Shown piece after piece: positions 3,012 to 40,453 of a DNA stretch of 41,102 nt. Location of the stretch: positions 1 through 41,102 of the IMG/VR virus record IMGVR_UViG_3300006802_000194, one strand, 5' to 3'. Both the position numbers and the translations under genes were made by a program. This DNA is from a virus. The stretch's first letter is position 1; every line of letters starts with the position of its first letter. The notes under the pieces are model-generated. The model was not told the DNA's origin, searched no databases, and saw nothing but the letters and a program-made list of their open reading frames with translations.

Positions 3012-3013
3012 AT

Positions 3014-6036: not shown

Positions 6037-6049
6037 ATAGAGCCTTGAG

Positions 6050-8096: not shown

Positions 8097-8105
8097 GGCC
8101 CTAAA

Positions 8106-15090: not shown

Positions 15091-15125
15091 CTGCCCAACC
15101 CGAAACACACACAGGAGCCCCCTGC

Positions 15126-18100
15126 ATGAGCCCGTTAAACCTATTCAAAGGCCGTACTCAAAAGTATATCAAGCGCATCCCCAAAGCGGGCGGCGGGTAT
15201 CGCTACATCTATAAAGAGCACCACAAGGGAGGCGTGGGCGCCGTGGAGCACATGAAGGAAGGCGCCGCTTTTAAGCTGACCTTCGGAGGACAAGAGGGCC
15301 ACTTTCACATCATAGCCACCCAGGGCGACAAGATCACGGTCAAGCATGATGAGCTACACGGGCCCGATCATAAGGGCGTCGAGATGACAAAGGCTGAGCT
15401 GAGCGAGCTCTTGACGCGAGAGCACCGCCCCGCGCTAGAAGCCGACGCTAAGAAAAAGCGCGAGCGGGTAGAGCGCATGAAGCGCGAGACACCCCGCCAC
15501 ATAGGGCTAAAGCAGGCTGAGCGCCAAGCGAAAGAGGCTGAAGCCCGCTTAGGTGAGGAGCGCCCCGACAACTTCGAGACAATGCCTGAGAGTGAAGGCG
15601 AGAGCCCGACAAGCCCCGCGCAGAGCGTCGAGGACATAGACGCACAGCTAGAGGCGAACGAGCCTAAGCTAAGCGAGCTCAGCAATCTTCAATTTAGACT
15701 CAAGCAAGCGCGCAAGGCCCCGCCACCAAAAGCAGGCAAACGAGCCAAGCCCCCCGAGGACTTATTCAGCGGGCTAGGAGCAAGCCGCGAGGCCGCCGTA
15801 AAGCAGGGCTTTCAGCTCAGGAAACCCACCGAGGCAGAGGCCCGCTTGATCGAAGAGCAGCAAGCGATCTTTGACGCGCCCCCAGACGCTAAGCCTAAGC
15901 CCTCGCCCGAGCTCGCGGCGATACGCGACCAATATCGCGAAGCTTTCCCCGAAGGGCCCGCAAAGCCCTTTAAAGAGCTCTTTATGACGGGAGTGATTCT
16001 TGAGCCGTACACGCTAAAGCACACACAAGCCACCCGCGCCGACATAGACACGGGAAAACTAGCAGAGCGTCTTTCTCGTTGGGAAGGGCGAAGCGCAAAG
16101 CGCGCCCAAAAAGAGGCCGCTGAGATCAGAGCGCTCTATATAGACAAAATGAGAGAAATAGAGCTCTACGCCGCCGACGCTTTAGAGCACAGCACCACAG
16201 ACGAGCAACGCGCCGAGATAAATAAATTAATCCAAGGAGCGAGAACAAAAGCCCGAGACTATATCGAGCGCTTTACAAGTGGCCGTGAGGAGGGTAAGCG
16301 CAACAACGCCGACAATCTACAAGCCTTCCTGAAAGTAGACCTGAACATCACCCGCGCGCTCAGAGAGCTTAGGAGCAAGCACCTTGAGCAGTCAAGCAAG
16401 GAAGCCCAACGCCAAGAGCGGGCGATCTTAGACCAAAACGCCGAGCTCAGAGATCGAAAGGACGAGATCGAGGCACAAGCGCGCCAACCCGCGCCCGACA
16501 ACTTCGAGACAATGCCTGAGAGCGATGACTACACACAGCAAGGTGTCGCGCTCAGCTCAAAGGCCCGCGCGGAGCTCGCGAGGGCAACGGGCGCCGCTAT
16601 GCGGGCGGGCGACCGCGATAAGGTGAGAGAGCTCACCGAGCGCGCCGACCGCGACAACGTACACACGGGCGATGAAAAGATAGACGCGCTCTTTAACTTT
16701 TACTTTGTGGAGGGCACACGCAAAGACCTACCAGACGGCGGCCGCACAGTAGAGCACTCAGGGCGCCTTAATGGAGCAGATGAGCAAGCCCTAGAGGACG
16801 CAGTTAAGCGCGGCGTTTTAAACGTACAGACAGCGCCAAACGGCGCAAAGGTCTACAGCCTGAGCGGCGAGCGCGCGGCCCGCTCCCTAGACAGCAATAT
16901 GACCTTGGTCACAAACAAAGGCGCGTACACCTTCAACTATGCCGATTTTAGCGCGCCAAACGCGCATGAGGGCTACCCACCCGAACAGCTCGCAGAGGAC
17001 TTGATTAAAGAAAATGATGACCTACCGCCGCCGAAAGACCCCGCGCGAGTCAACGCGATACTTGACGAGCTCAAGGGCTTGATCAAGGAAAACCCCGCAC
17101 TAGCTAAAGATCCCCGTATCGCGGCGCTCTTAGGAACACCCGAAGGGAAAGAGCCGCCTAAGCGCGAAGGGCGCGAGGCCACGCTATTTGTGACAGGGAT
17201 CGCGGGCTTAGACCCTAACCAAAAAGCGCGCTATAAGCTCATTGAAGCGGGCGATGCTATCGCCTCACATGACCCGATAGCCTTCTCAAAGCGCCGCGAC
17301 TACCCCGAAGGCGTACAAGAGCGCGCATACCACAGCGCCAAAAACGAGCAGCTCAAGGTGATAGCCAACGCGGGCGCAAAGTTTAACCCAGCATACCTTG
17401 TGAACACGAACCCCGACGCCACCAACGGCCCGCCCATCCTCACACCCGAGGGCCACGCGCTAGGTGGAAACTCGCGCGTGATGAGCTTACAGCGTGTTTA
17501 TAATCAAAACCCCGAAGGGGCTAAGCGGTATAAAGAGGAGCTCAAAGCACAGGCCGCCTCTTTCGGCTTCACCGCCGAGGACATCGACGCGCTAGAGGCG
17601 CCCATGCTCGTCAGAGTGTACGACCCACAAGACGACAGCACCGAGGAGCTCAGGAAGCTAGTCAGAGCGATGAACGAGAGCAAAACGGCGGGCATGGAGG
17701 GCCGCACCGAGGGCCGCGCGCTCGCCTCAAAGCTCAGCGACAACACGCTAAAGACGATTAAGCGGGTGCTAGACAAAGCCCCGAAAGACTACAGCCTAAA
17801 CAGATTCTTGACCAAGCCCTCAAAAGGCTTAGACGAGCTTGTGGGCGCCCTCTTCCGTGATGGGATCATTACACCTGAGAGCGCGCCTAAGCTCTTGAGG
17901 GTATCAGACGGCACACTAAACCCACAGGGCCGCGACCTTGTTCAGAAAATCTTAGTGGGGCACGTTGTGAGAGATGATCGCATTTTAGCGGCGCTTGACT
18001 ACCAGACTTATGAAAACTTAACCGTCGTGCTAGGCAAGCTCGCGGCGGCAGGGCTCAACGAGACACAGCGCAGCGCGCTAGAGGACGCTGTGGCGCTCTA

Positions 18101-18548
18101 TAACTACGCCACCCAAAAAGACACGCTCAAAGCCCGCGACAGCCTGAAAGAGCGCGATGATGCTATGAGATTCATCTTAGAAGAGGAGCAAGAGCTGTTC
18201 AGCGGAGCGAGCGCCGAGGGCCTCGACATGGAAGGGCTCAAGAGCCGTACCCTAGCCAACCCGCTCGCGCGCGGATTTCTACAAATGATGGTACTCGCGC
18301 CAAGCTCGAAAAAGCTAGAAAACGCCTTCGACAGCTTCATCGAGCTCACAGAGAAGAAAGAGCAAATAGATATGTTCGCCGCGGGCCCTATGGAGTACGA
18401 AACCGCAATCAATCAGCTGATCAAAGAGCTAGGCGACAAAGAAAAGCTAGATGTGCGCCCGTATGGACAGACTAAAAAGAGCATCGACCTAGAAACAGCG
18501 CTCTTTAAGCACCTACTTCGCAAGGCCCGAGCCCGTGCCCTATCCTAA
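15126..18548 (+). CDS. Giant polyvalent-type protein B with DdrB/ParB-like nuclease-fold domain
   Basis: A 1140-residue protein starting at ATG 15126, with AGGAG upstream; the longer frame from 14994 overlaps gene A in an arginine-rich shadow. Residues 1-146 duplicate the N-terminus of protein A. PDNFETMP occurs at 147 and 457. At about 690-800 lies a ParB-like domain of the DdrB type, with YLVNTNPDATNGPPILTPEG followed by GGNSRVMSL and then LVRVYDPQDDS. In polyvalent proteins this fold is linked to DNA binding, nuclease or NTP-dependent modification activity, but the activity here is untested. The remaining C-terminal third is helical. The last 14 bases overlap the next gene. I consider the ParB-like call good and any specific function uncertain. 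Confidence 0.75.
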   Translation: MSPLNLFKGRTQKYIKRIPKAGGGYRYIYKEHHKGGVGAVEHMKEGAAFKLTFGGQEGHFHIIATQGDKITVKHDELHGPDHKGVEMTKAELSELLTREHRPALEADAKKKRERVERMKRETPRHIGLKQAERQAKEAEARLGEERPDNFETMPESEGESPTSPAQSVEDIDAQLEANEPKLSELSNLQFRLKQARKAPPPKAGKRAKPPEDLFSGLGASREAAVKQGFQLRKPTEAEARLIEEQQAIFDAPPDAKPKPSPELAAIRDQYREAFPEGPAKPFKELFMTGVILEPYTLKHTQATRADIDTGKLAERLSRWEGRSAKRAQKEAAEIRALYIDKMREIELYAADALEHSTTDEQRAEINKLIQGARTKARDYIERFTSGREEGKRNNADNLQAFLKVDLNITRALRELRSKHLEQSSKEAQRQERAILDQNAELRDRKDEIEAQARQPAPDNFETMPESDDYTQQGVALSSKARAELARATGAAMRAGDRDKVRELTERADRDNVHTGDEKIDALFNFYFVEGTRKDLPDGGRTVEHSGRLNGADEQALEDAVKRGVLNVQTAPNGAKVYSLSGERAARSLDSNMTLVTNKGAYTFNYADFSAPNAHEGYPPEQLAEDLIKENDDLPPPKDPARVNAILDELKGLIKENPALAKDPRIAALLGTPEGKEPPKREGREATLFVTGIAGLDPNQKARYKLIEAGDAIASHDPIAFSKRRDYPEGVQERAYHSAKNEQLKVIANAGAKFNPAYLVNTNPDATNGPPILTPEGHALGGNSRVMSLQRVYNQNPEGAKRYKEELKAQAASFGFTAEDIDALEAPMLVRVYDPQDDSTEELRKLVRAMNESKTAGMEGRTEGRALASKLSDNTLKTIKRVLDKAPKDYSLNRFLTKPSKGLDELVGALFRDGIITPESAPKLLRVSDGTLNPQGRDLVQKILVGHVVRDDRILAALDYQTYENLTVVLGKLAAAGLNETQRSALEDAVALYNYATQKDTLKARDSLKERDDAMRFILEEEQELFSGASAEGLDMEGLKSRTLANPLARGFLQMMVLAPSSKKLENAFDSFIELTEKKEQIDMFAAGPMEYETAINQLIKELGDKEKLDVRPYGQTKKSIDLETALFKHLLRKARARALS
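15141..15563 (+). repeat. Direct repeat copy 2: N-terminal domain of polyvalent protein B
   Basis: Partner of 10795-11217, same length with no indel and 40 mismatches by hand alignment. It ends one codon before the first PDNFETMP motif of protein B. Confidence 0.9.
15564..15590 (+). repeat. PDNFETMP motif, copy 3
   Basis: Codes for PDNFETMPE at residues 147-155 of polyvalent protein B, directly after the duplicated N-terminal domain. Followed by an acidic Ser-rich linker (SEGESPTSPAQS). Confidence 0.8.
16494..16520 (+). repeat. PDNFETMP motif, copy 4
   Basis: Codes for PDNFETMPE at residues 457-465 of polyvalent protein B, after the sequence EAQARQPA and before SDDYTQQG. Copies 3 and 4 share the extension PES. 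Confidence 0.8.
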
Positions 18549-18786
18549 CGAACACGCCGCCCGACAACTTGAGCCCGAAGGCTTCGCGCGCTATAGCTCG
18601 CAAGACATAGCCGAGGGCTTACGCTTGATCTTTGGTATAACACCAGGCGGAGAGCTCAAGCTACAATCCATCCGAGCAGATCGAGCCCGTTTCACACCCG
18701 CGCAGTTTAAAGCATGGCTCAAGCGCCGAGGCTATCAAGCCGACATAGAACCCGCCACAGGAAGAGGCCCCCGTGCTAGTGACTGA
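18535..18786 (+). CDS. Small conserved phage domain protein (YPNEHAAR motif)
   Basis: An 83-residue protein from GTG 18535, overlapping the end of polyvalent protein B by 14 bases. The order of motifs is PYPNEHAARQLEPEGFARY, then GITPGGELKLQSIRADRARFTPAQFKAWLKRRGY. I recognise this combination (Y/PNEHAAR, a G-I/V-x-P segment, a Q-x-I-R strand and an FT-x-x-x-AxxWL helix) from many phage proteins, either alone or fused to head or protease-like proteins. Its role is unknown; it may bind nucleic acid or virion proteins. It overlaps the head morphogenesis gene by 14 bases, consistent with coupled expression. Confidence 0.6.
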   Translation: MPYPNEHAARQLEPEGFARYSSQDIAEGLRLIFGITPGGELKLQSIRADRARFTPAQFKAWLKRRGYQADIEPATGRGPRASD

Positions 18787-19816
18787 AGCCCAAGCAATCA
18801 CAAGCGAGGCAATCCGCGACCACTTCGACGCGCTCAGCGTGGAGCTCTTAGGCGCCCGCGCCGCAGGGCTACCCCGCGAGCGTATCGAGGAGCTCATTCA
18901 GCGAGGGCGCTTGAGCATAGACGCGCTCACAGGGCTAGACATGGGCGACCTATCCGAGCCCCTCAACCCTGTACTCTTCATGCGACTACTAGGCACCCCA
19001 TACGCGGAGGCAGACCCGCAGACCCGCGCACAAATGAGAACATGGGCGCTTGATAAATGGGCGCGCGAGCTCCAAAGCCCGCTGAGCGCCCGCATAGAGC
19101 AAGACACGGGCGCCATAGACACGACCCCGCCACCGTTCAGCATAGACCGCCCGCCACCACCCGAGGAAACGAGCTACACACCGACCCCGCGCCCGTTCCC
19201 CTCTTGGCTCAATCAAGCAGAGCAAGCGGGCCTTGTTAGCGCGTATGAGCACACGGGCCGCTTTATCAGAGGGCTAGGAAACACCCTCATAGACGAAGCG
19301 CGCGGGATCATAGCGGAAGAATGGGCAGGCGAGAGGCTACTAGCCACACCCGACCCCGCCAGACGAGACGAAGCGCTCAAGATACTACGCGAGGAAATAG
19401 CCACAGCCACCCTCACCCGAGACACGGCCCAAACCGCCGCCCGACGTATTAGACAGAGAACAGGCGACCTCGCCCGCAACTTTGAGCGGATAGCCGAGAC
19501 AGAACTACAGGCGGCACATAACGACGGGATGCTTTATCAGGCGGCCTACCTTGACGGCGACGAGGCCCGCGTGGCTCGTATCCCCGAGAGCGCCGCTTGT
19601 CGCCATTGTTTGAGGCTCTTTATAGGCCCCGAAGGCCGCCCCGTTATCTTCAAGATTGACGAGCTCGCCGCCAACGGCACCAACGTAGGACGCAAGGCGG
19701 CCGACTATCTACCCACCGCTTATCCCCTGCATCCAAATTGCCGCTGTGATACTATACCCATCAGAGCAGGACAGGCCGCGACCCGCGAGGGCCGCTTGAT
19801 AAAGGAGCCCGTATGA
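18773..19816 (+). CDS. MuF-like/SPP1 gp7-like head morphogenesis protein
   Basis: A 347-residue minor head protein starting at GTG 18773. The C-terminal domain has the family signature: a helix with RIAETELQAAHNDGMLYQAAYLDG, a cysteine pair in ESAACRHCLRLF, and the closing YPLHPNCRCDTIPI. Proteins of this family sit inside the procapsid near the portal and help assembly or are ejected with DNA. The middle contains a proline-rich linker (TTPPPFSIDRPPPPEET) of the type separating N-terminal effector and C-terminal domains. It overlaps the next gene by ATGA. It marks the return to head genes after the metabolic and polyvalent block. Confidence 0.85.
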   Translation: MLVTEAQAITSEAIRDHFDALSVELLGARAAGLPRERIEELIQRGRLSIDALTGLDMGDLSEPLNPVLFMRLLGTPYAEADPQTRAQMRTWALDKWARELQSPLSARIEQDTGAIDTTPPPFSIDRPPPPEETSYTPTPRPFPSWLNQAEQAGLVSAYEHTGRFIRGLGNTLIDEARGIIAEEWAGERLLATPDPARRDEALKILREEIATATLTRDTAQTAARRIRQRTGDLARNFERIAETELQAAHNDGMLYQAAYLDGDEARVARIPESAACRHCLRLFIGPEGRPVIFKIDELAANGTNVGRKAADYLPTAYPLHPNCRCDTIPIRAGQAATREGRLIKEPV

Positions 19817-20520
19817 GGACACTAGGCCGCTTTAATCTCGTCAAAGCAGAGGCAAACCCCGACCAACCAAACACCGCGCGCATCCAGGGCGTTATCTCTA
19901 CAGATGACACCGACCTCCAAGGGGAGAGCGTCGCGCAAGGCGGGCTTGACTTCGACTACTTCCTTAAAAAAGGGTGGCTCAACTACGATCACAAGGCAGG
20001 GATCGAGAACATTCTAGGCTATCCGCTCAAAGTAGAGCGCAACGGGAACAAGACACATTTAACGGGCGTCTTGTTGCTAGATAAACCGCTGGCGCGCGAG
20101 ATATACGACACCGCGCAGAGCCTCGCCAAAGCAGGCGCCCCGCGCTCGCTAGGCTTTAGCGTAGAGGGCCACGTTATCGAGCGCGACCGCAACGACCCCA
20201 AACGCATCACCCGCGCGAAGGTCATAAACGTCGCAATCACCCCAAGCCCGATCAACCCGCAAACACAGCTCGAGCTCCTCAAGAGCCTGGTGGGCTACCA
20301 AACACCAAGCGCCACGGGCCCAGGGCTCGCGGCTCTCGTACCCCAACAACTAGACCCCGTTTTAAGCTCAGCAGACAGCCGCGCTCTGAATGGCTTGTAT
20401 GATGAACGGCTCGCTAGTACAATAAAGGGGCTTTATGCACAATTCCCGAGCGTCGATCTCAAGGACATACTTGACGCCGCCCACACCATCACACAGCAAA
20501 CAGGAGAGGCCCGCCAATGA
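19813..20520 (+). CDS. Prohead maturation protease (HK97/U35-like)
   Basis: A 235-residue serine protease that trims scaffold and capsid proteins during head maturation. Probable catalytic residues are His60 in GWLNYDHKAG and Ser116 in RSLGFSVEGH. NVAITPSPINPQTQ near residue 140 matches the strand that closes the active site in this family. The C-terminal 75 residues lie outside the protease core and contain VGYQTP (160-165) and LAALVPQQLDPVLSS (172-186), closely matching the N-terminus of the major capsid protein. That tail may be a self-cleavage region or a docking segment. ATG overlaps the upstream stop and the gene is followed by a probable scaffold gene. Confidence 0.85.
   Translation: MRTLGRFNLVKAEANPDQPNTARIQGVISTDDTDLQGESVAQGGLDFDYFLKKGWLNYDHKAGIENILGYPLKVERNGNKTHLTGVLLLDKPLAREIYDTAQSLAKAGAPRSLGFSVEGHVIERDRNDPKRITRAKVINVAITPSPINPQTQLELLKSLVGYQTPSATGPGLAALVPQQLDPVLSSADSRALNGLYDERLASTIKGLYAQFPSVDLKDILDAAHTITQQTGEARQ
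20290..20370 (+). repeat. Capsid-like segment in the protease tail
   Basis: Codes for VGYQTP and, after a short insert, LAALVPQQLDPVLSS. The same order of motifs occurs in the major capsid protein (21152-21247). Codons differ between the two genes (for example CTCGTACCCCAACAA here, CTCGTCCCGCAGCAG there), so the similarity is kept at protein level rather than being a recent DNA copy. Confidence 0.8.
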
Positions 20521-21089
20521 ATCGCGCCGACCTTATTGATATGCTCATGGACGCGGGCGTAAGTCTCGCAGACGCGGAGCGCCGCGCAGATGAGCAAATG
20601 AATGACCTAAACCAACGCGAGACGCTCGCTAAGAGCCTCGATGCGCTCAACGAGATCGCAGAGCGCCAGGCAGAGGCCGAGGCCCTCGAGGCCGCGCGCA
20701 TCGCAGAGGCTCACGCCGACGGCGAGGCGTCTTTCGCGGAGCTCATCGCCCCCGCGCTCGACGCTATGCTCTCAGAGACACGCGCACAAAATGAGGCTCT
20801 CTGTAAGGGCCTCACGGGCGCGCTCGAGCTTCTCAAGGGCCTCAAGAGCGAGCTCAAGGAGCTCAAGGCCCGCCCCGTCGCACAGCCTACGGCGCAGCCT
20901 CTCGCGAAGAGCGTTGACTATATCCCCGCACCAAGCGAGGCAGCGCCAACCTCCGACGCGCGCGACGAGTTAATCAAAGCCCTCACCTCACCATCTAACA
21001 GCGAGCGCGCTTCTGAGATGCTTCAGGCCGCCGCACTACTCGAGAGCGGCGCAAACCCCGCAGACATTCGGGCCCGTTTCGGCCTTTAA
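20517..21089 (+). CDS. Probable scaffolding or capsid assembly protein
   Basis: A 190-residue, highly charged, alanine- and glutamate-rich protein predicted by eye to be mostly helix (RADEQMNDLNQRETLAKSLDALNEIAERQAEAEALEAARIAEAHADG). A long Leu/Lys helix (ALELLKGLKSELKELKARP) is followed by a proline-containing linker and a short helical C-terminus. Position between prohead protease and major capsid protein, size and composition are typical of scaffolds, which are removed during maturation. No sequence signature proves it. ATG overlaps the protease stop (ATGA). Confidence 0.6.
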   Translation: MNRADLIDMLMDAGVSLADAERRADEQMNDLNQRETLAKSLDALNEIAERQAEAEALEAARIAEAHADGEASFAELIAPALDAMLSETRAQNEALCKGLTGALELLKGLKSELKELKARPVAQPTAQPLAKSVDYIPAPSEAAPTSDARDELIKALTSPSNSERASEMLQAAALLESGANPADIRARFGL

Positions 21090-21109
21090 TTAGGAGAAAG
21101 CAAAAGCAT

Positions 21110-22495
21110 ATGAACACGCAAGCACTCGTCAATGAGCTCAAGAAGGGCTCCGTAGGCTATCAGACTCCACTCGTCCCACAGGGCGGCTCACAGGTGGCCT
21201 CTAACCTCTCGCCACTCGTCCCGCAGCAGCTCGAGGCGACTCTTTCAACCGCGACCTCAAGCATGGCTGATCTCAAGCTATGGCCTATGATGCAAAAGGT
21301 CATGGCTCAGAATACCGTGGTTGAGTTTAATCGCGTCCTGAGCCACGGCGCCGAGCACTCTCCCTTTATCGGTGAGGGTGGCTTAGCTCCGCTCAACCGT
21401 GCGACCTACGAGAAGGTGGCCACTCAGATCAAGTACCTCGCAGAGCGCCGCGAGATTACCGACCAGGCTAATCTTGTCACCCTCAACGGCCCAAGCCCTG
21501 ACGCGCTCGCAGAGGAGACAACCCGCGGCACCGAGGCGCTTTTACGCCGCGTGGAAAAAGAGCTCTTCCACGGTGACAGCTCAGTCAATGATAACGCATG
21601 GGACGGGATCATCAAGCAGATCAAGGACGGCGGCAACACCTCCGACCTTCGCGGTAAGGCTGTCACGCCTGACTATCTCCAAGAGGTCTTAGGCTCACTC
21701 TACAGCGCGCCGTTCTATGGCATGGCGTCACATATCCTTGTGACTCCCCGCGTCCTCTCTGAGCTCATCAAGCAGACCGTCTCATACGGGCGCCATGATC
21801 AGATCATGCTGAACAACGGCCGCGTAGACTTCGGCTCTAATCAGATCAGCATCAGCTCGCCTTATGGTATGGTTCCCGTCGTGGCTTGCCCCTTCATGGA
21901 GCGCCATGACCGCGTGGCACCCGCGGCGGCATCAAGCGCCGTCTACGAGGGCTCTGTCGTTACTCCAACCATCAGCGTCGCGGCGGCGGCGGGACAGAAC
22001 GCGGCTTCTAAGTTCGTCGCGGCTGACGCGGGCGTCTACACCTACCGAATCGTTCCAGTCGGCCCGAACGGCGTGGGCGTTCCTGTAGACACCGTGGGCG
22101 TATCCGTTGCCGCGGGCGATCAGGTCACGTTCACCATCGCGAACAGCGACGGCCGCGCGACCGTTGACCATTACCGCATTTACAGGAGCGCACCCGACGC
22201 AGCAAGCGCAGACGGCGCGCTTCTCGTTGGCGAAATCCGTAACGCTAACGGCTCAACCGCGTTCGTGGACAATAACGACAACATCGCGGGCGGCTCTGAT
22301 ATTCTCTTGGTCAACAACAGCGCTGATCACATGGTTTACTATCAGATGCTCTCGCTCATCCGTCGCCCTCTCGCTCAGGTGCGCTCGACCTTCCCGTTCA
22401 TGCTCATGATGTTCGGGGCCCCCGCGGTCAAGCTCCCCTCTAAGATGTGGGCGATTCGTAACGCAGGGATCAACCCCGCGCAGGGCCTCCCATAA
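21110..22495 (+). CDS. Major capsid protein, HK97 fold
   Basis: A 461-residue capsid subunit. The N-arm contains VGYQTP (15-20) and LSPLVPQQL (33-41), the latter corresponding to the LVP segment that opens the HK97 core. FIGEGG, the spine region ATQIKYLAERREITDQ, and EETTRGTEALLRRVEKELFHGD follow. At about 283-403 there is a beta-rich insertion (YTYRIVPVGPNG, VDHYRIYRSAPD) resembling a fibronectin III or Ig-like domain. The C-terminal RRPLAQVRSTFPFMLMMFGAP returns to the core. A strong ribosome site (TAGGAGAAAG) precedes the ATG. Codon use differs from neighbours: no ATA isoleucine codon was seen, in line with very high expression. Confidence 0.88.
   Translation: MNTQALVNELKKGSVGYQTPLVPQGGSQVASNLSPLVPQQLEATLSTATSSMADLKLWPMMQKVMAQNTVVEFNRVLSHGAEHSPFIGEGGLAPLNRATYEKVATQIKYLAERREITDQANLVTLNGPSPDALAEETTRGTEALLRRVEKELFHGDSSVNDNAWDGIIKQIKDGGNTSDLRGKAVTPDYLQEVLGSLYSAPFYGMASHILVTPRVLSELIKQTVSYGRHDQIMLNNGRVDFGSNQISISSPYGMVPVVACPFMERHDRVAPAAASSAVYEGSVVTPTISVAAAAGQNAASKFVAADAGVYTYRIVPVGPNGVGVPVDTVGVSVAAGDQVTFTIANSDGRATVDHYRIYRSAPDAASADGALLVGEIRNANGSTAFVDNNDNIAGGSDILLVNNSADHMVYYQMLSLIRRPLAQVRSTFPFMLMMFGAPAVKLPSKMWAIRNAGINPAQGLP
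21152..21247 (+). repeat. Capsid N-arm segment shared with the prohead protease
   Basis: Codes for residues 15-46 of the capsid protein, VGYQTP through LSPLVPQQLEATLS. See 20290-20370 for the partner segment. The preceding residues also resemble each other (NELKKGS here, LELLKSL in the protease). Confidence 0.8.
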
Positions 22496-22528
22496 GGCGC
22501 CCGCTTAGCTCTCTAAGAAAGGTCTAAA

Positions 22529-22807
22529 ATGTACCGCTCAAAGCGTTTCCGAAACGGTCAAATCTCTATCGCGGGCGAGCTCGCCACGATTGAAGAATAC
22601 CAAATCACTAGCGCCTTGAGCGACGCACAAAAGGCCCATCTTGAGAGCTCGCCCGCGTGGATGCTCATCGAAGAGCCCACGCGGGAACCATCCCCCCGCG
22701 CCACCTCTGAGGAGGAGGCGCCCGAGCCTGTTAAGCAGGCCGAGGCCCTGGAAGAGAAGCCCAAGCCCAAGAGGCGCGGGCGCCCTCGCAAAAAGGCCGC
22801 CGAATAA
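22529..22807 (+). CDS. Small head-associated protein with AT-hook-like basic tail
   Basis: A 92-residue protein. The first 50 residues (RSKRFRNGQISIAGELATIEEY, then SALSDAQKAHLESSPAWMLIEE) look like a compact conserved domain seen in small proteins next to phage capsid genes. A glutamate- and proline-rich linker leads to KPKPKRRGRPRKKAAE, with RRGRPRKK matching the AT-hook consensus for the DNA minor groove. An AAAGG element lies before the ATG. A capsid-vertex or internal DNA-contact role is inferred from position and tail. TAATG overlap with the next gene. Confidence 0.55.
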   Translation: MYRSKRFRNGQISIAGELATIEEYQITSALSDAQKAHLESSPAWMLIEEPTREPSPRATSEEEAPEPVKQAEALEEKPKPKRRGRPRKKAAE

Positions 22808-23751
22808 TGAGCGCGCTAGGGCTCAGAGGCTACGGGCCCGAGTGGCTCAAGCAGACCTACCTGCTAGGCGTCGATCTTACGCTTGACGATGGTAGCCCAT
22901 ACCCTGACGAGCTCTTTACAACGGCCCTCGATCAAAGTGAGCGCGCGATAGCTTCTGAGCTTGGCTTGACCTTACAGCCGCAGACCTACCAAGAGCGCCA
23001 CGACCGCGAGCCCGACGGCGTGAGCGGGTGGTGGCCTATCAGGTCACGACAGCGCCCGCTTTTAGCCGTCGATAAGCTCTCTATCGTTTACGGTCGAAGC
23101 ACAACGCGCTCAGAGCTCCCGCCTGAATGGGCTATCATCACCGAGCAAGACGCGGGACAGATTCACATAGTACCCACGACAGAGGGCGCAAGCTCTTACC
23201 TGGTCGCGGGCGGTATGCCTGTCATCTTAGGGCTAGGTGGCCTCTCACAAGCGTTCTATGTGCCCGCATATTTTGAGCTCACCTATCAAGCGGGCTTCCC
23301 CCTCTACACAGGCGCCGCGACAATCGCCCAAGGGCAGAGCTCAACAAGTATCAGCCTACCCGCAACACTCGAGCGCCCATACACGGCGACCACAAGCGCG
23401 GGCAGTATCAGCGCGCGGCTCTATGATTCTATCGAGATCAGCCTAGACAGCCCCGCGCAGGCAGACACGCCTTTAACTTGGCAGGTGGACACAATGCCCC
23501 CCGAGCTAATCAGGGCTATAGCGCTCAAGAGCTCTAATGTGGTGCTTAATATCGCGGGCGACCTAATCGCGGGCGCAGGTATCGCGCAATTATCTACGAG
23601 CATGGACGGCTTGAGCCAGTCTATCGCGACAACGGCGAGCGCGACAAATGCGGGCTATGGCGCGAGAATCTTACAGTATGAGCGCGAGCTAAAAGAGCTC
23701 ATGGGCACACTCAAAGCGACATATAGGGCGCTCAACTTCGCCGCGCTCTGA
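22807..23751 (+). CDS. Head-tail adaptor (neck) protein
   Basis: A 314-residue protein at the first neck position after the capsid genes. The N-terminal part (LTLDDGSPYPDELFTTALDQSERAIASELGL) resembles head completion/adaptor proteins that bind below the portal. YFELTYQAGFP and later PPELIRAIALKSSNVVLNIAGDLIAGAG also fit adaptor proteins of contractile-tailed phages. The C-terminus is a helix (ILQYERELKELMGTLKATYR). The assignment rests on order, size and this pattern. The stop is followed by GGAGG for the next gene. Confidence 0.65.
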   Translation: MSALGLRGYGPEWLKQTYLLGVDLTLDDGSPYPDELFTTALDQSERAIASELGLTLQPQTYQERHDREPDGVSGWWPIRSRQRPLLAVDKLSIVYGRSTTRSELPPEWAIITEQDAGQIHIVPTTEGASSYLVAGGMPVILGLGGLSQAFYVPAYFELTYQAGFPLYTGAATIAQGQSSTSISLPATLERPYTATTSAGSISARLYDSIEISLDSPAQADTPLTWQVDTMPPELIRAIALKSSNVVLNIAGDLIAGAGIAQLSTSMDGLSQSIATTASATNAGYGARILQYERELKELMGTLKATYRALNFAAL

Positions 23752-23761
23752 GGAGGCCCCC

Positions 23762-24583
23762 ATGATTCTCGCAGGACGCGCGCCCGTAAAGCTTCAACCT
23801 CGCGCAGATTTTAAGCCCGAAGAGTTTAGAAAGCGCATCTTCTCACACGGCCTTAATGTCAGGTGGGAACAGGCCGCAGAGTGCCCTTGTAACCAACCCG
23901 CGCAGAGCGGCGGCTTTAGCGCGACGTTAAGCGGCGCGCAACACGGCGAGCGCAGGCGCTCAGATTGCCCCGCTTGCGACGGGCGCGGCTATATCTACCA
24001 CAGCCGCCAAACGATCAAGGCGATAGTCACAGGCGCCCGCAAGACAGATGAGCGATTCAGCCAAGTAGGGGGCTCAGAATACCCCGAGGCCACAGTAGGT
24101 TTCACGCTATTACCTGAGCACCTAGCGGGCGCCTTTGATCGCTTCACTTTATTAGACAGCGAAATCGTTTATCGACAAACGCTTACGCGAGGCACGGGCA
24201 CAATAGACACGCCAAGGTATCCCATCATTCAGCGAACGCACGACTTGACGCCCGCCCCGCTGACCTTTGGCGTGAGATATTGCATGACCTCAGATATAGA
24301 GGGCAACGTAGACCCAAGCGCCCACAAGCGCACCGAGGGCGAGCACTTCACAGTAACAAGCCTGGGCGCGCTCGAGTGGATAGACAGCCCACCCGCAGAG
24401 GGCGCGCGATATAGCCTCGAGTATTACACTCACCCCGCCTATATTGTACAAAGCACCCCGCACAGCATAAGAGACAGTTACATCAATTTTAAGGCCCCCG
24501 CGCCCTATCATGTCACGCTCCCGATATACGCCGAAGCGCGCCTAGAGTTTTATGGAGCTCCCGAGGTAGCGGCCGATGTTTAA
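23762..24583 (+). CDS. Neck protein with Cys-rich zinc-ribbon-like motif
   Basis: A 273-residue protein. Near the N-terminus it carries WEQAAECPCNQP (Cys41, Cys43) and, 26 residues later, DCPACDGRGYIYHSRQTIKAIVTGA (Cys69, Cys72). I have seen this combination in neck or connector proteins of tailed phages; the second pair resembles the CxxCxGxG element that binds zinc. The remainder is beta-rich. GGAGG precedes the ATG with good spacing. It lies between the adaptor and a tail-completion-like gene, fitting a head-tail joining role. The 3' end overlaps the next gene by eight bases. Confidence 0.65.
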   Translation: MILAGRAPVKLQPRADFKPEEFRKRIFSHGLNVRWEQAAECPCNQPAQSGGFSATLSGAQHGERRRSDCPACDGRGYIYHSRQTIKAIVTGARKTDERFSQVGGSEYPEATVGFTLLPEHLAGAFDRFTLLDSEIVYRQTLTRGTGTIDTPRYPIIQRTHDLTPAPLTFGVRYCMTSDIEGNVDPSAHKRTEGEHFTVTSLGALEWIDSPPAEGARYSLEYYTHPAYIVQSTPHSIRDSYINFKAPAPYHVTLPIYAEARLEFYGAPEVAADV

Positions 24584-25283
24584 CGCGCAGACCGCGGGCC
24601 TAGACCCTAAGAGCAGAGAAGCCAGAGCGTATCGAATAGCAGAGGCGCTTGTGGCCGCTTGGAGAGCCGAGGCGGGCGCAAAGCTCAAGCGCACAGCGAG
24701 CCTATACAAGAAGGCGATCACCCTTAGACAAGTCTCGCCGAATCATGTGATTATCAGCCTAAGCGGCGCCGTTCCCCTCATGCTCGAGTTAGGTGTTGCC
24801 CCGCATGATATGAGGCGGTATCTACTCAAGACACGGCGCCCCAACGCTTCACCGATCCGCAAAGTGAAGAAGGGCCCGCGCAAGGGCGAGCCTTACCGCT
24901 ATATTATGTTCAGGCGCACAGCCGAGGACATAGAGAGCTACGGTGGCGGCGCGGGCGCCGTTAGACAAGCCCGCAGCCTGAGCCCCTCAACGTCTCAAAC
25001 AAACGGGCGCCTAGCTTATGGCTCACGCTACAACAGCGCAAGCGCGCACTTCCTGAATAAAAGCGGCGTTAGGAGCGTGAGCGGCGCGCTTGAGGGGATG
25101 GTAAGACTGGAAGGTGGCGCGAGCACCGCGAGCAATAAAGGCAGCCGCTCGACTTATGCGACATGGCGCACAGTCTCGACACTACGCCCCGAAGCGTGGA
25201 AACACCCAGGCTTTAAGGCGCTCATGTTACACCGCAAAATCATTCAAGACGCGGCGCAGATAGCCGAGGCGGCGGGAGTTTAA
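24576..25283 (+). CDS. Tail completion/neck protein (HK97 gp10-like)
   Basis: A 235-residue basic protein. AVPLMLELGVAPHDMRRYLL near residue 65 and the C-terminal YATWRTVSTLRPEAWKHPGFKAL are typical of minor tail or neck proteins of the HK97 gp10 group, where a WxHPG-like motif closes the domain. These proteins help terminate the tail and join it to the head. Start overlaps the upstream stop and the next gene begins one base after its TAA. Confidence 0.7.
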   Translation: MFNAQTAGLDPKSREARAYRIAEALVAAWRAEAGAKLKRTASLYKKAITLRQVSPNHVIISLSGAVPLMLELGVAPHDMRRYLLKTRRPNASPIRKVKKGPRKGEPYRYIMFRRTAEDIESYGGGAGAVRQARSLSPSTSQTNGRLAYGSRYNSASAHFLNKSGVRSVSGALEGMVRLEGGASTASNKGSRSTYATWRTVSTLRPEAWKHPGFKALMLHRKIIQDAAQIAEAAGV

Positions 25284-25284
25284 C

Positions 25285-25884
25285 ATGATGCACTACCACG
25301 CGCTAAGCGTCATCAGAGCCGCCCTGAATTACTACCTGAGCCCCGAAGGTTTAGCCTCTTGGTTAGAGCTCTTTAGTGTCACCGCGCATGATACGGACAG
25401 CCTAACCACAATTCACGCGGAGCTTAGCGCCAAACCCCCACAGCTCAGAGCCTACGCGCTCGCGGGCAACGCCGAGCCGCCGCTTGTGGTAGCTCAGCTA
25501 GGTGACTATCGAGTAACAGACCGACCGCTAGGACATACAGCGGGAGGCGCGGAGGCCACGATCTCAAGCCAAGCGATCAGGCTTGAGATCATAGCCAAGG
25601 GCGCCGACGAAGCAGAGGCGCTCGCTTTCACGGTCTACGCCGCGCTCAGACAGGCCCGCGCCGACTTCCTAGCCAATGGCTATCTATCCATGAGCGTAGA
25701 CAACATCACCGAGCTAGAGCCCCATGAGGCCCTAGCCGCTGAAGAGCTTGGCATGTATATCAGGCGCATAAACGCCGCCGCCCAGATACAAGATCATATC
25801 GCGAGGCTAGGTGAATGGGATAGCACACTAGGCACCTTGACCGCTCAGCTCAGGCGCCACGGTGGCGCGATTGACCCACTCTAG
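25285..25884 (+). CDS. Tail terminator-like protein
   Basis: A 199-residue protein beginning at the first of two adjacent ATG codons (25285, 25288). An alpha/beta pattern with ISSQAIRLEIIAKGADEAEALAFTVYAALRQAR and a mid-protein strand, together with position between the gp10-like gene and the sheath, fits a tail terminator or sheath terminator that caps the tube at the neck. No catalytic motif. The call is mainly from synteny. Confidence 0.55.
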   Translation: MMHYHALSVIRAALNYYLSPEGLASWLELFSVTAHDTDSLTTIHAELSAKPPQLRAYALAGNAEPPLVVAQLGDYRVTDRPLGHTAGGAEATISSQAIRLEIIAKGADEAEALAFTVYAALRQARADFLANGYLSMSVDNITELEPHEALAAEELGMYIRRINAAAQIQDHIARLGEWDSTLGTLTAQLRRHGGAIDPL

Positions 25885-25904
25885 CCAAGCCCAACAAAAC
25901 AAGA

Positions 25905-25930
25905 TAAAATAGAGCCAACCAAGGAGGCCG
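25905..25930 (+). promoter_or_regulatory. AT-rich leader with strong ribosome site before the sheath gene
   Basis: The 49-base gap before the sheath gene is unusually AT-rich for this region. TAAAAT at 25905-25910 matches five of six positions of a sigma-70 -10 box, but no convincing -35 element lies 16-18 bases upstream. AAGGAGG follows seven bases before the ATG and is one of the best Shine-Dalgarno sequences in the window. A late promoter is possible; the ribosome site is firm. Confidence 0.4.
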
Positions 25931-25933
25931 ATC

Positions 25934-27574
25934 ATGCCGAGCTTTATCACACAAAGCGGATTCCCCCGCACCGCGCGCCCCGCTATTTACGCCCGTATTG
26001 ACGCGAGCGCCCTCGCAGGCGGCGCGCTCGATTCAGGCGCCCTCGCTATCGTAGGCGACTTTCCGAGCTTCCCGAGCTCTGAGCCCGTAGCTTTCAGCTC
26101 ACGGCGCGCTATGGCCGCCTTTGACGCGACAGACCGCGACCTTGCACAGCTCGCGGCGCTCGCCTTCTCACCTAGTGATGACGAGAACGCCAACCGAGGC
26201 GCCGCGCAGGTGGCTATGATTAACGCTCGAGAGGGCGCCGTCGCGGCCACCCTTGCACACGGGCCCATCACATTGACAAGCTCAGTATATGGGCCCCGGG
26301 GCAACCGCCTCCAGGGTACGCTCACAATCAACGGCGACACCCACGCGCTCAGCCTTAATCGAAACGGGCTCACAGAGGCGTACAGCGTAGAGAGCACCCC
26401 GCTCTTTAGCATCACCAACAACACGGGCGCCTCTATCGAGTACGAGCTAGAGACGGGCACCTTCACGCTTTTAGACGCGGGCGCGCTCACGCTCCTCTCA
26501 GTCACAAGCGCAGAGGCCCCAACCGCCCGCGCGCTCGTTGGCCTCATTGATCAGCTCGAGAACATTAGCGCGACACTCATCGACCCCATTAACGCGCCCC
26601 TCTCTGAGCTCGACTACTTGAGCGGGACAATCGCAGACGGCGCAACGGGCGAGCTCAAGGCGCCCGCGTTCCGCCTCATGCGCGAGCTCAGCGTGAGCGG
26701 CCTAGTGAGCGCAGAGCTCGACAATTCAAGCACCGCGGCGAGCTTTAGCGCGAGCACCGAGACAGCGACAGGCGGCGCCCAGGGCTCTGTTTTAGATTAC
26801 GAGGCGGCCTTACAATCTATCGAGGCGCTCAGCTATCAGCTCGTTGTTCTGTTCAGCTTGAGCGCGGCCGACCAAAGCAAGCTAGGAGCGCACCTAGACG
26901 CCGCCGCCCGCGCGGGCTACGAGCGCCAAGCCTACACGGCGATAGATTCCACAAGCGCCCTGAGCGCTGTTAAGACACGCGCCGCGAGCCTTAACGCTCC
27001 TGATATTGCCCTGACGGCCCAGTCTATCACCATCTACAGCCCAACGGGCGAGCGTGTGACCTTAGACAGCCGCTACACCGCGCTTATGTTCGCCGCGATG
27101 CAGGCAGGAAGCGACACCGCCGAGCCTTTAACACGCAAGCGCCCCCGCGTTATCTCATTCTCACAAGCGTGGAACACCCACGCCGACGCGGAAGAGGCGC
27201 TTAGATCAGGCGTGATCTTTATGAGCTCCGACACTATCGGCGCGCGTATCGAGCGCGGCATCACGACTTGGCTCGAGGACAATAACCCCATTTACAGCGA
27301 AATCAGCGCTTACGAGAGCTTACTTGTGAGCGTGAGAGACATTAGACAGGCGCTAAATGATCAAATCGGGCGCCCCGCCCGCTCGTCACAGCTCACCCTT
27401 ATAGAGAGCCGAGTAAACGCGCGCTTAAATGCTCAGGTGCTAGACGGCACGATTAAAGCGTTCGCAAACGTCACACTCGAGGACTTAGGCGATCAGGTCG
27501 CCGTGAGTTATGACGCCGCGCCCGTAGAGCCCCTCAACTTCATTACCTTGACCGCCGTCGCGCGGCGCATCTAA
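25934..27574 (+). CDS. Tail sheath protein
   Basis: A 546-residue protein with the expected size and place for the contractile sheath. The N-terminus SFITQSGFPRTARPAIYARID and AIVGDFPSFPSSEPVAF match the beta-rich start of sheath subunits. The C-terminal domain shows ISFSQAWNTHADAEEALRSGVIFMSS, then RIERGITTWLEDNNPIYSEISAYESLLVSVRDIRQAL and a long final strand region, as in the conserved sheath core that contacts the tube. The middle is an exposed variable domain. It defines the phage as contractile-tailed. Downstream is the tube gene after a 12-base gap. Confidence 0.85.
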   Translation: MPSFITQSGFPRTARPAIYARIDASALAGGALDSGALAIVGDFPSFPSSEPVAFSSRRAMAAFDATDRDLAQLAALAFSPSDDENANRGAAQVAMINAREGAVAATLAHGPITLTSSVYGPRGNRLQGTLTINGDTHALSLNRNGLTEAYSVESTPLFSITNNTGASIEYELETGTFTLLDAGALTLLSVTSAEAPTARALVGLIDQLENISATLIDPINAPLSELDYLSGTIADGATGELKAPAFRLMRELSVSGLVSAELDNSSTAASFSASTETATGGAQGSVLDYEAALQSIEALSYQLVVLFSLSAADQSKLGAHLDAAARAGYERQAYTAIDSTSALSAVKTRAASLNAPDIALTAQSITIYSPTGERVTLDSRYTALMFAAMQAGSDTAEPLTRKRPRVISFSQAWNTHADAEEALRSGVIFMSSDTIGARIERGITTWLEDNNPIYSEISAYESLLVSVRDIRQALNDQIGRPARSSQLTLIESRVNARLNAQVLDGTIKAFANVTLEDLGDQVAVSYDAAPVEPLNFITLTAVARRI

Positions 27575-27586
27575 GGAGCCCTTAAA

Positions 27587-28015
27587 ATGCCACAGTATAA
27601 AGCGATCAGCGGCGCGGCCTGTAAAGTCTACCTCTCAGCCACAGGGCAGGAAATCGGATGGGCGACAGGCGTAGACGTTAGCGAGAACATCACACAACAG
27701 CGTGTTGACGTAATAGGCGACATCGACAGCGCCGAAATCGTACCAGTAAGGCGCACCGCCACCATGAGCGTCGCGGCGATTAAGATTCAGCGTCAACCGC
27801 TAGAGGCGGCGGGCGTATGGCACAGCGGCGACACCGACGATTTACTAAACAGCGCCGCGCTCGACTTCGCTGTGATTGATGACAACACGGGCGACCCGCT
27901 CCTGACTTTGGAGGGGTGTAAGCCTACTACGCGCTCGTTTAGGGTTGATTCTCAGAGCCTTTTCACCGAAAACCTAAGCTTTGAGGTGAGGCGCATCATC
28001 TACCCAACCAACTAA
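27587..28015 (+). CDS. Tail tube protein
   Basis: A 142-residue protein immediately after the sheath. It is mostly beta strands (CKVYLSATGQEIGWATGVDVSENI, then RVDVIGDIDSAEIVPVRRTATMSV and NLSFEVRRI), with the size of hexameric inner-tube subunits of contractile tails. The tube is the channel for DNA and its length is set by the tape measure protein. AAGGAG lies upstream of the ATG. Confidence 0.8.
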   Translation: MPQYKAISGAACKVYLSATGQEIGWATGVDVSENITQQRVDVIGDIDSAEIVPVRRTATMSVAAIKIQRQPLEAAGVWHSGDTDDLLNSAALDFAVIDDNTGDPLLTLEGCKPTTRSFRVDSQSLFTENLSFEVRRIIYPTN

Positions 28016-28035
28016 GCGCCCCCGTGAGGTGACAC

Positions 28036-28485
28036 ATGAAGCTCAGCGAAATCAAAGAAGGGCGCCTTAAACCCGACACGGGCGGCCCCACCACGACCAA
28101 CGCCGAGCGGGTGATTCATCTCACATACGAGGCCCAGGGCAAGAGCCACAAGGCCACATTCACCGCGCGGGTATTGGATATGAGCGCGCGTATCTCAAGA
28201 GATCGCGCGCTTGCTATGCTGAGCGCCCCCACGCGCTTCGATGACTTACCCACGGCCGCGAGGCTTAGAATCTTCGCGCTCGCCACCCTCGCCCACGCGC
28301 TCATTGACGCGCCCGCATGGGTTGAGGAGTGGATAGGACTAGATGACGAGCTCTTATTCTCTTTATACGAGGAGGTAGCGGCCCATGAGGCCGCTTTCTT
28401 TCGCGGCGACATGGAAGAGGGCACAGCTCAGGAGGAGCGCCCCCGCGTTCAGCTTAGGGCGCTTGATACCGCCCCCCGCTCTTGA
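28036..28485 (+). CDS. Tail assembly chaperone, upstream ORF (gpG-like)
   Basis: A 149-residue protein between tube and tape measure, the usual place of the tail assembly chaperone that coats the tape measure during tail assembly. It is helical with an acidic C-terminal half (DDELLFSLYEEVAAHEAAFFRGDMEEG). GAGGTGA, an excellent ribosome site, precedes ATG 28036. The next open frame, shifted by +1, overlaps the last 100 bases, and CCCC slip candidates lie in the overlap, so a longer fused product is expected, as in phages using programmed frameshifting. Confidence 0.75.
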   Translation: MKLSEIKEGRLKPDTGGPTTTNAERVIHLTYEAQGKSHKATFTARVLDMSARISRDRALAMLSAPTRFDDLPTAARLRIFALATLAHALIDAPAWVEEWIGLDDELLFSLYEEVAAHEAAFFRGDMEEGTAQEERPRVQLRALDTAPRS

Positions 28486-28690
28486 GCCGTGCCCTTTAGA
28501 CCCCACACGACCCAACGCGCACCCCGCACAGGTCTTAGAGCTCGCGCTGTTATCTCTCGACGAGGACGCCTTTAACGCCGCCCGACCGACTCAACATGAT
28601 ACGCTACAAGCAGACGCGCCCGCTAAAACGGGCGTCGCATGGATAGACGAACAGGAGGCCGCGCGCTATGGCTCAGAGCGTACAAATTGA
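28385..28690 (+). CDS. Tail assembly chaperone, downstream ORF (gpT-like extension)
   Basis: This frame is +1 relative to the upstream chaperone. The part beyond the overlap codes for LEPCPLDPTRPNAHPAQVLELALLSLDEDAFNAA and ends at 28690. It is most likely read as a C-terminal extension after frameshifting near 28441-28479. Independent initiation is an alternative: ATG 28385 has AGGAGGT at 28370-28376 with an eight-base gap. The first 30 residues of that version are arginine-rich and look like a shadow of the upstream frame, which favours frameshifting. The coordinates given are those of the independently initiated form; the fused product would start at 28036. It overlaps the tape measure start. 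Confidence 0.6.
   Translation: MRPLSFAATWKRAQLRRSAPAFSLGRLIPPPALEPCPLDPTRPNAHPAQVLELALLSLDEDAFNAARPTQHDTLQADAPAKTGVAWIDEQEAARYGSERTN
28430..28479 (+). other. Probable programmed +1 (or -2) ribosomal frameshift region
   Basis: AGGAGGAG (28430-28437) lies three to five bases before the in-frame codon CCC (28441-28443), which is followed by another C. A second run, GCCCCCCGC (28471-28479), sits four bases before the upstream frame's TGA at 28483. A tRNA-Pro slipping from CCC to the overlapping CCC would enter the downstream frame at either site. The arrangement of a Shine-Dalgarno-like element close to a slippery P-site codon recalls the +1 shift site of the prfB gene. Not demonstrated. Confidence 0.55.
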
Positions 28691-30188
28691 CGTAAGAGTG
28701 GGAGATGATCAGCTCACACAACGGCTAAAAGAGCAGATCAGACTAGCAGAACAACTACAGCGCACACTCAACGCGCCAAGACCCGCGGGCGCCCAAATGG
28801 GAGCAGGCGCCCCGATGGGAGCAGGCGCCCCTGGGGGCATCCAACAAGACGCGCGAGGCTACTACAGAGACGCGCGCGGGCGCTACGCTTCCCCTGAAAT
28901 GCTCGCGCCGTATGGCCTACAACAACCAAACCAAGCAGATAAGGAAGAGCAAGAGCGCCGCGCGCGAAATAAAAGACGCATGGCCGCCGCTCAAAGCTTT
29001 TTAACCCAAACAAGCGCGGGCGGGATGCTTCAAAGCATAGGTGGCGCCGTCGAAAATATCCCTTTTGTCGGCCCCATAGCGAGCGCTTATCTAGGGATCA
29101 AAGGGCGCTCTCTACAAATGCGCGAGCAAATGGCAGGACAGGCCGCAGGGCTCGAACAACTAGAGGCCCGCATGATGGGCGCCATAGACACGACAGACGC
29201 ACAGGCCGCAGGCGAGGCGCTCACCAGGGAGCTCCAACCGCTAGGCTTTGGCCCCCAAGAGGCGCGGGCGCTAGGGCTCCAAGTGGCGACGGCCTACGGG
29301 CGCGGGCTATCTAGTCAACAGCTACAAGCCCAAGCGCTCGAGTTAGGAGCCGCCGAGCGCGCAGGCATCCCCGCGGCTATGCTCGCTCAATTTGCGGGCG
29401 CGCTCACAGAGGCGGGAGGCGGCGACTTTAGCGCGACTATGGAGCTCACGAAAGAGGTCAGGAACCTAGCAGAGCAAGGGCTAGATCTAAGGGGCTCAGG
29501 CGTTCAAGCGTTTCTTAGCGGCGTGAGCGGCCTAGCCTCGAGCCTAAGCGGGCAGGGCTTGAGCGTGAACGTGCGACAGCTCAGCGACACAATGAGAGGA
29601 ATCAGCCGAGTAACAGGGCGCACAGGACAGCGCCCGCTCCAGATCACACAAGCCCTTTCAGGCGCCGCAGGTGGCGCGCGCGCTGCTTTTCAAGGCCAAT
29701 TCAGCGGGCTCGTAACGTCAGCCATTCAAGCGGAAGCGTTCAGCCAAGCAGACAGCCCACTAGAGGCGATGAGAATCATGGAGGACATACAGCGCGACCC
29801 CGCACGGGTGCAGGAGATCACGCGCCGAACCTTCGGGACAGAGGGCGCCGCGCTAGGACTCGCAAGTATTGGGGGCATAGGCACACGCGAAGCAGAGAAG
29901 CTCGCCGCCGCGCCTACCCTCAGAGCCACGGGCGCCGAAGCAGCGCGCTTGACAGCGGAGCAGCTCAGCCAAGGGCTCACAATCAGCGCGGCACAAGCAC
30001 AACAACAACAGACGCTAATTGACCCACTCAGGACAGCAGAAGCCACCAAAGAGCTACAAACGCTGATCGAAACGAGCACCACACTACAAAAGTCAGTCTT
30101 ACAGTTGACCGATAACGCCCAAGCGCTACAAGCGCTTACAAAGGGCCTGGCAACCGCGCTCGATTATGCTTCCAGGTGGGTACCGTGA
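28668..30188 (+). CDS. Tape measure protein (short)
   Basis: A 506-residue protein directly after the chaperones, with AGGAGG nine bases before ATG 28668. It starts with a coiled-coil-like helix (DDQLTQRLKEQIRLAEQLQRTL), then a Gly/Ala/Met-rich low-complexity stretch with repeated MGAGAP units. A long helical body follows with small hydrophobic runs (IGGAVENIPFVGPIASAYLG) suited to membrane passage during DNA ejection. At roughly 1.5 angstroms per residue it would set a tail near 75 nm. No wall-hydrolase domain is seen. The position and helical, Ala/Gln-rich composition support the call. Confidence 0.72.
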   Translation: MAQSVQIDVRVGDDQLTQRLKEQIRLAEQLQRTLNAPRPAGAQMGAGAPMGAGAPGGIQQDARGYYRDARGRYASPEMLAPYGLQQPNQADKEEQERRARNKRRMAAAQSFLTQTSAGGMLQSIGGAVENIPFVGPIASAYLGIKGRSLQMREQMAGQAAGLEQLEARMMGAIDTTDAQAAGEALTRELQPLGFGPQEARALGLQVATAYGRGLSSQQLQAQALELGAAERAGIPAAMLAQFAGALTEAGGGDFSATMELTKEVRNLAEQGLDLRGSGVQAFLSGVSGLASSLSGQGLSVNVRQLSDTMRGISRVTGRTGQRPLQITQALSGAAGGARAAFQGQFSGLVTSAIQAEAFSQADSPLEAMRIMEDIQRDPARVQEITRRTFGTEGAALGLASIGGIGTREAEKLAAAPTLRATGAEAARLTAEQLSQGLTISAAQAQQQQTLIDPLRTAEATKELQTLIETSTTLQKSVLQLTDNAQALQALTKGLATALDYASRWVP

Positions 30189-31558
30189 AAGCCTACTACT
30201 ATACAGACACCGAGCGCCGCGAGCTCACGCACTATTTAACGGCGATCAGCATTGAGAGCTCAGTAAACGCCCCATACCACCGCGCAAGCCTGAGCCTCAA
30301 AAGCACACCCGAGCTCGAGCGCTTACTATTACCACAGACGCCACAGGGCACCGCGGGCCTTGACCTTTGGATACTAGTAACCGAGGAGCTAGACGCCCAA
30401 GAGCGCGCGCTATTCATAGGCCCCGCCCAAGAAATCAGCCGCACACTCAGGGCCACAGAATCAGCCGCGCTCACGACCGACACGCTCACACTAACAGCGA
30501 GCTCACCACTAGCACACATGATGAGCTCAGCGATCTATTTGAGCGGCCGCCCGCAAGAGATCGACGGGCACATAAACACGCTCAAGACATGGGGCGGGAC
30601 AATGCGCGAGCTCTTTCGCGCGCCGTTCCAAAATAACAACGTAGGCGCAGTCTTTCAGCGCATCTATAACAAGCTCGCGCCGCCGTATCGCTTCCCCACG
30701 TTATTGGGCGCCGACCTCTCACAAATACCAGTTATTTACAGCGCCGAGCGCGCCCAACAATACACACCCACACAAGCGCCCCTCTTTCGCTCGATTCACG
30801 GCCTAGCCGTCAACGTAGTCTCACAAGCGACAAACACAAGCGGCAGCCCCTGGCAGATTCTCGCGGGCGCCTTCGACGTCGACCCGAACCTTGTTGAGCT
30901 CTTCTATACGCTCGAGCCCGCAACAAAAGGCCCCCTATCGCAGAAGATAGGCGCAACGCCCGCAATCGTTTACAGATTTAAGCCCTATATCTTCGGACAA
31001 ATAAGCGCGCCCGCAGGCGTAAACGCAGCCAACGAACAGACCCAAGACGCAGCCAAGACCCCGCACAAGATGACGGCCAATGAGATCATTTATCTCAGCA
31101 CGACACAGAGCGATCAAGACCGCATAAACGCCGCATATGTAGACACGCCCTTGACCATATCGCGAGGCGTCGAGAGCTTCGGGCTACTCGCAAACCCCGC
31201 GCTCAATCGCGAGGATATAAACCGCGCAGGGCTCCGAATGTATCGCGCAAATTGGCCCTTTTTCCCACCACGCGGGACAGCCGAAAACATGGCGCCGCAT
31301 ACGCGCTACTTAGTAGCCATAGCCTCGACAATCACAGGACAGGCGCACCAATACGCGAGGGCGCAAGCCTCAACAGCTTACCGCCCCGACCTACGCGCGG
31401 GCCTATGGCTCAAGCTCCAAATCACAGAGCGCCGCGCGCTTGTGGCTTATATCGAGACAATCAGCCATAACCTCAGCATGAGCGGCGCCACGCTCACAAG
31501 GCGTTCACAGCTCACCCTAGCGCGCGCCTTTTACATCGAGGAGGGCAGCGACGCATGA
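30185..31558 (+). CDS. Baseplate hub protein (gp27-like)
   Basis: Best start is GTG 30185, overlapping the tape measure stop (GTGA) with AGGTGG just upstream; the GTG at 30176 lies too close to that site. The 457-residue product begins MKAYYYTDTERRELTHYL. Segments PWQILAGAFDVDPNLVELFYTLEP and the C-terminal YRPDLRAGLWLKLQITERRALVAYIETISHNL and LTRRSQLTLARAFY are typical of hub or tail-tip proteins of the T4 gp27/Mu gp44 type, which connect the tube to the spike. It is followed by a probable spike gene. Confidence 0.65.
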   Translation: MKAYYYTDTERRELTHYLTAISIESSVNAPYHRASLSLKSTPELERLLLPQTPQGTAGLDLWILVTEELDAQERALFIGPAQEISRTLRATESAALTTDTLTLTASSPLAHMMSSAIYLSGRPQEIDGHINTLKTWGGTMRELFRAPFQNNNVGAVFQRIYNKLAPPYRFPTLLGADLSQIPVIYSAERAQQYTPTQAPLFRSIHGLAVNVVSQATNTSGSPWQILAGAFDVDPNLVELFYTLEPATKGPLSQKIGATPAIVYRFKPYIFGQISAPAGVNAANEQTQDAAKTPHKMTANEIIYLSTTQSDQDRINAAYVDTPLTISRGVESFGLLANPALNREDINRAGLRMYRANWPFFPPRGTAENMAPHTRYLVAIASTITGQAHQYARAQASTAYRPDLRAGLWLKLQITERRALVAYIETISHNLSMSGATLTRRSQLTLARAFYIEEGSDA

Positions 31559-32316: not shown

Positions 32317-32319
32317 CCC

Positions 32320-33933: not shown

Positions 33934-33934
33934 A

Positions 33935-35332: not shown

Positions 35333-35336
35333 GCAC

Positions 35337-37996: not shown

Positions 37997-38000
37997 GACT

Positions 38001-39593: not shown

Positions 39594-39599
39594 CCGCGC

Positions 39600-40445: not shown

Positions 40446-40453
40446 GCGCCCCC

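Follow-up and report, generated by a model that had tools for sequence, protein, structure and literature searches.

Iterated and avoided palindromes

Highly iterated palindromes (HIPs), exemplified by HIP1 of cyanobacteria, occur at 1000-2000 copies per Mb (Elhai 2015, PMC4390886). The opposite phenomenon, avoidance of orthodox Type II restriction sites, is common in phages and strongest in the non-temperate ones (Rusinov et al. 2018, PMC6286503). A third source of unusual word frequencies is codon-context or codon-pair bias combined with an oligonucleotide signature; our search of the codon-pair literature returned nothing specific.

The palindrome GAGCTC is abundant in a viral contig of 41,102 bases, which was analysed over its whole length and is called the window below. 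With HIP1 and its alternates it shares a high observed/expected ratio (O/E) and a high density, and GGCGCC and TGATCA, enriched in some HIP-bearing genomes, are enriched in this phage as well (PMC4390886). It differs from HIP1 by the absence of a unit-level effect and by a strong dependence on codon phase, and no methyltransferase was found in the incomplete window. As in restriction-site avoidance, whole palindromes including CCGG are missing as units from the window, and GAGCTC is likewise missing in some relatives; what departs from that known pattern (PMC6286503) is the high number of palindromes missing from this one genome. The excess resembles a codon-context bias, being bound to reading phase, dependent on AG and on a following A, graded and common to relatives, whereas the strong preference for the word GCTCA/TGAGC sets this case apart.

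A contractile-tailed phage

The window has a G+C content of 58.3% and carries almost all of its genes on the + strand. Predicted products comprise a portal, a head protease, a major head protein, a tail sheath, baseplate proteins, a CHAP-type endolysin, a SNF2-type helicase and a ribonucleotide reductase with weak Pfam matches to B12-dependent class II domains; there is also one tRNA-Met, and a DNA polymerase gene is cut by the right end of the contig. With this gene content, the window belongs to a contractile-tailed phage and is incomplete at least on the right. The features referred to in this work are the following:

4522..6036, + strand, portal protein (PHROG 12, E=4e-49), used as query for finding relatives
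10777..15090, + strand, 1437-aa protein with primase-like C-terminus (PHROG 19458, E=3.5e-18)
14994..18548, + strand, 1184-aa protein with ddrB-like ParB-superfamily domain (PF18763, E=2.6e-16)
21110..22495, + strand, major head protein (PHROG 752, E=5e-64)
22801..23760, no strand, sampled stretch with six GAGCTC starting at 22909, 23113, 23275, 23337, 23529 and 23695
22807..23751, + strand, tail-fibre-family gene with six GAGCTC, four in Glu-Leu phase and two in Ser phase (PHROG 772, E=7e-43)
773..40760, no strand, stretch over which the 129 GAGCTC copies are evenly spread

The domain match of the 1184-aa ddrB-like protein suggests a candidate polyvalent or antirestriction protein.

Abundance and phase of GAGCTC

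GAGCTC is present in 129 copies, compared with 12.9 expected from base composition, which corresponds to an O/E of about 10 and to 3139 copies per Mb. The preliminary description, drawn from the sampled stretch, had counted six copies for roughly 0.3 expected per 960 bases and had extended this density to the entire window; the positions are exact, the whole-window figures agree, and each tenth of the window contains 9-17 copies (chi2/df 0.46), with no clustering detected anywhere along it. Its assignment of four copies to the Glu-Leu phase and two to another is also exact relative to the tail-fibre-family gene, where four copies lie in phase 0 and those at 23337 and 23529 in phase 2 (xxG-AGC-TCx). 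In the window as a whole, about 100 of the 129 copies are in the Glu-Leu phase, so that a single codon phase holds 78% of them, and 22-23 are in the Ser phase. Between the last + strand gene and the tRNA-Met, a pair of GAGCTC ten bases apart forms an inverted-repeat-like stretch at 40456-40471 that may be a terminator.

The excess shrinks as the null model improves. Markov models of the whole window predict 21.8 copies at order 1, 39.9 at order 2 and 120.3 at order 4 (O/E 1.07). When synonymous codons are shuffled with the proteins held fixed, 50 copies are expected against about 124-127 coding copies observed, and shuffles preserving both codons and junction dinucleotides give 65-71. Codon usage accounts for about half of the coding copies, and the earlier view that codon-pair bias does not explain all of them holds as far as codon usage is concerned (124 coding copies against 50-65). 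Phase-specific Markov models predict 69 copies at order 2, 94 at order 3 and 122 at order 4 for 127 observed. The preliminary description had proposed such a Markov comparison as the test by which its claim could fall: order 4 does reproduce the count, but a model built on pentamers takes up a large part of whatever hexamer signal is genuine and its agreement alone is weak evidence, while order 3 still falls short and leaves GAGCTC at rank 35 of 4096.

Codon preference and the GCTCA/TGAGC word

Codon choice in this phage is markedly skewed: GAG represents 76% of Glu codons, CTC 38% of Leu and AGC 60% of Ser, and CTG makes up only 7% of Leu codons. Glu-Leu dipeptides are themselves frequent (154 for 92 expected), Leu is encoded by CTC in two thirds of cases after GAG, AAG or CAG, and a Ser that follows AGC is nearly always TCN. 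Under the null model preserving codons and dinucleotides, the most enriched words are CTGAGC/GCTCAG (108 against 40) and AGCTCA/TGAGCT (137 against 63). The non-palindromic pentamer GCTCA/TGAGC reaches 360 against 192 under the same null and is raised in each reading phase able to contain it. It is also 1.6-1.9-fold up overall in the relatives L002, L008, L013 and L068, and TGAGC is 1.9-fold up in G001, a Deltaproteobacteria metagenome-assembled genome (MAG) that holds another relative, L032. The bias resembles a signature carried at the DNA level by the phage clade, and perhaps by its host group.

Is the palindrome a unit?

Within a given codon phase, a palindrome acting as a unit can be recognized by asking whether its outer G raises the chance of its outer C. 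In the Glu-Leu phase of the window, CTC encodes 100 of the 147 Leu residues that follow GAG (68%) and 56 of the 85 that follow AAG or CAG (66%), and no closing-base effect is present (OR 1.10, p=0.77). The Ser phase gives 23:19 against 20:25 (p=0.39) and the phase-stratified test an OR of 1.31 (p=0.30). Because no closing-base effect exists within codon phase, the driver is AG|CTC and not GAGCTC. Pooling 13 GAGCTC-rich phages, the window included, yields a weak effect at the level of the hexamer (OR 1.33, p=0.014) in a set chosen for its richness. In the GAGCTC-poor relatives L006, L007, L043, L045 and L047, the closing-base OR falls to 0.08 (p=3e-8), and to 0.06 across all phases (p=1e-13); an effect of this strength establishes that the test has power for a hexamer-level effect. 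As for other palindromes, GGCGCC displays a unit-level excess in the window (phase-stratified OR 1.73, p=0.0009) that is not found in relatives. A longer palindrome, TGAGCTCA, was considered as the true unit and rejected, with 8 copies for 6.4 expected.

Relatives and potential hosts

Searches with the portal protein recovered about 20 records that are 62-74% identical and many more in the 45-54% range; a capsid query against viral contigs found no relatives. Most close relatives over-use GAGCTC, 1.2- to 2.4-fold relative to the codon null, and others are poor in it (L006, 1 copy for 11 expected; L007, 2 for 6). The more distant relatives L043, L045, L047, L091, L092, L093 and L101 contain 0-1 copies for 4-13 expected. 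In the five relatives in which the closing-base test was strongly negative, GAGCTC is avoided as a whole hexamer, which is what exposure to a restriction enzyme of such specificity would lead one to expect.

The only named host hint comes from L032, an 11-kb phage contig with a portal 74% identical to that of the window and binned in MAG G001. By composition G001 was rejected as the host, with a G+C of 73% and a weak tetranucleotide correlation with the window (r=0.27). It uses GAGCTC slightly below expectation (0.88), and none of 113 genomes from its phylum attains the window's density of 3.1 per kb, the highest reaching about 1.8. A second genome holding a portal relative, G280, was set aside as well, the window's signature not being strongly present in it. 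The suggestion that GAGCTC reflects a host genome signature is borne out in part: the GCTCA/TGAGC bias is common to the clade and to G001, but the over-use of GAGCTC is not found in G001.

Missing palindromes

The absence of palindromic sites stands out more than the excess of GAGCTC. Of the 64 palindromic hexamers, 29 have no copy in coding DNA, where 1.4 would be expected to be missing and none of 40 shuffles lacked more than 4. A single CCGG is present in 41 kb, where composition predicts 293 copies and codon shuffles about 94, and CCAG/CTGG is down threefold. Given their core tetramers, GCTAGC, AGGCCT, CCTAGG, CGATCG, TCATGA and CTTAAG are wholly or almost wholly lost as units (p between 1e-11 and 4e-6), with an OR of 0 in the unit test for the first four and for CTTAAG. 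Recognition-type palindromes are lost as units beyond what composition and codon usage predict, and this loss fits an extreme case of the restriction-site avoidance already known. The non-palindromic words GCACGC, GCGGAC, GAGACC and GAAGAC are absent too, each with 11-27 copies expected.

Origin of the GAGCTC excess

We consider it quite likely that GAGCTC is common not as a selected palindrome but because codon preference and the clade-wide GCTCA/TGAGC context bias generate it as a by-product. Favoured codons, frequent Glu-Leu dipeptides and the AG-CTC and GCTCA/TGAGC preferences would overlap to spell it. The word preference would itself reflect the DNA signature of the host group, through mutation, repair or translation context. 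GAGCTC could then accumulate in a current host that leaves it unrestricted, the site being tolerated because the phage is not selected to lose it.

An unlikely alternative is that GAGCTC is what remains after a purge: with many other palindromes and CCGG, CCAG and CTGC removed, synonymous codons would be steered towards it. The extent of the purge is in keeping with this idea, but when every absent word is forbidden in the shuffles, the expected count rises from 71 to no more than 72-78, for 127 copies observed. These constrained shuffles refute most of it; an influence of the purge on codon usage, as in the scarcity of CTG, may still be at work. In a very unlikely reading, GAGCTC, GGCGCC, GCGCGC, CGCGCG and TGATCA, the few palindromes still abundant, would owe their retention and in part their gain to host methyltransferases protecting just these sites; were this true, the palindrome spectrum of a phage would read out the restriction-modification set of its host. 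The unit-level excess of GGCGCC, seen in the window but not in relatives, would suit such a reading.

For cyanobacterial HIP1 a process linked to a methyltransferase has been proposed; that such a process creates or maintains GAGCTC as a unit appears highly improbable. Its composition O/E is far above 1, its density exceeds the HIP range (PMC4390886) and the pooled GAGCTC-rich phages show the weak unit effect described above. A HIP would however be the most over-represented word and its outer bases would interact, whereas CTGAGC, AGCTCA and GCTCA, none of them palindromic, lead here when codons and dinucleotides are preserved, one codon phase dominates and the outer bases show no interaction within phase in the window. 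Scans of the incomplete window with PF01555, PF00145 and the PHROGs, the latter alone covering other families, detected no DNA methyltransferase and no methyltransferase-specific PHROG match, and PF01555 and PF00145 had no match in 17 of 18 related records. The remaining record, L003 (46.8 kb), has one PF01555 and one PF00145 gene (L156, L157), alone among the related records searched. The analogy with HIP1 and the idea of protection by methylation, both raised in the preliminary description, accordingly find no support here. Nor does its protein-binding site: a site used by a phage or host protein for binding or packaging is barely credible, since the even distribution that would suit it is accompanied by copies spread through coding sequence and concentrated in one codon phase, by outer bases that do not interact within that phase, by no extended flanking consensus (TGAGCTCA, above) and by loss of GAGCTC in close relatives.

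Implications for phage palindromes

Under the by-product reading, this phage illustrates that a palindrome can reach a tenfold excess while having no function of its own. The closing-base test offers a simple way to separate a functional palindrome from a by-product, and it works in the opposite direction on the relatives. Among phages whose portals are about 50-70% identical to that of the window, GAGCTC is retained in some and purged from others; it is probably a site that host restriction causes to be kept or purged, and the phage of the window keeps it. The pattern of absent palindromes is the likely fingerprint of the restriction enzymes met by this uncultivated phage lineage, and a more useful lead than the excess of GAGCTC.
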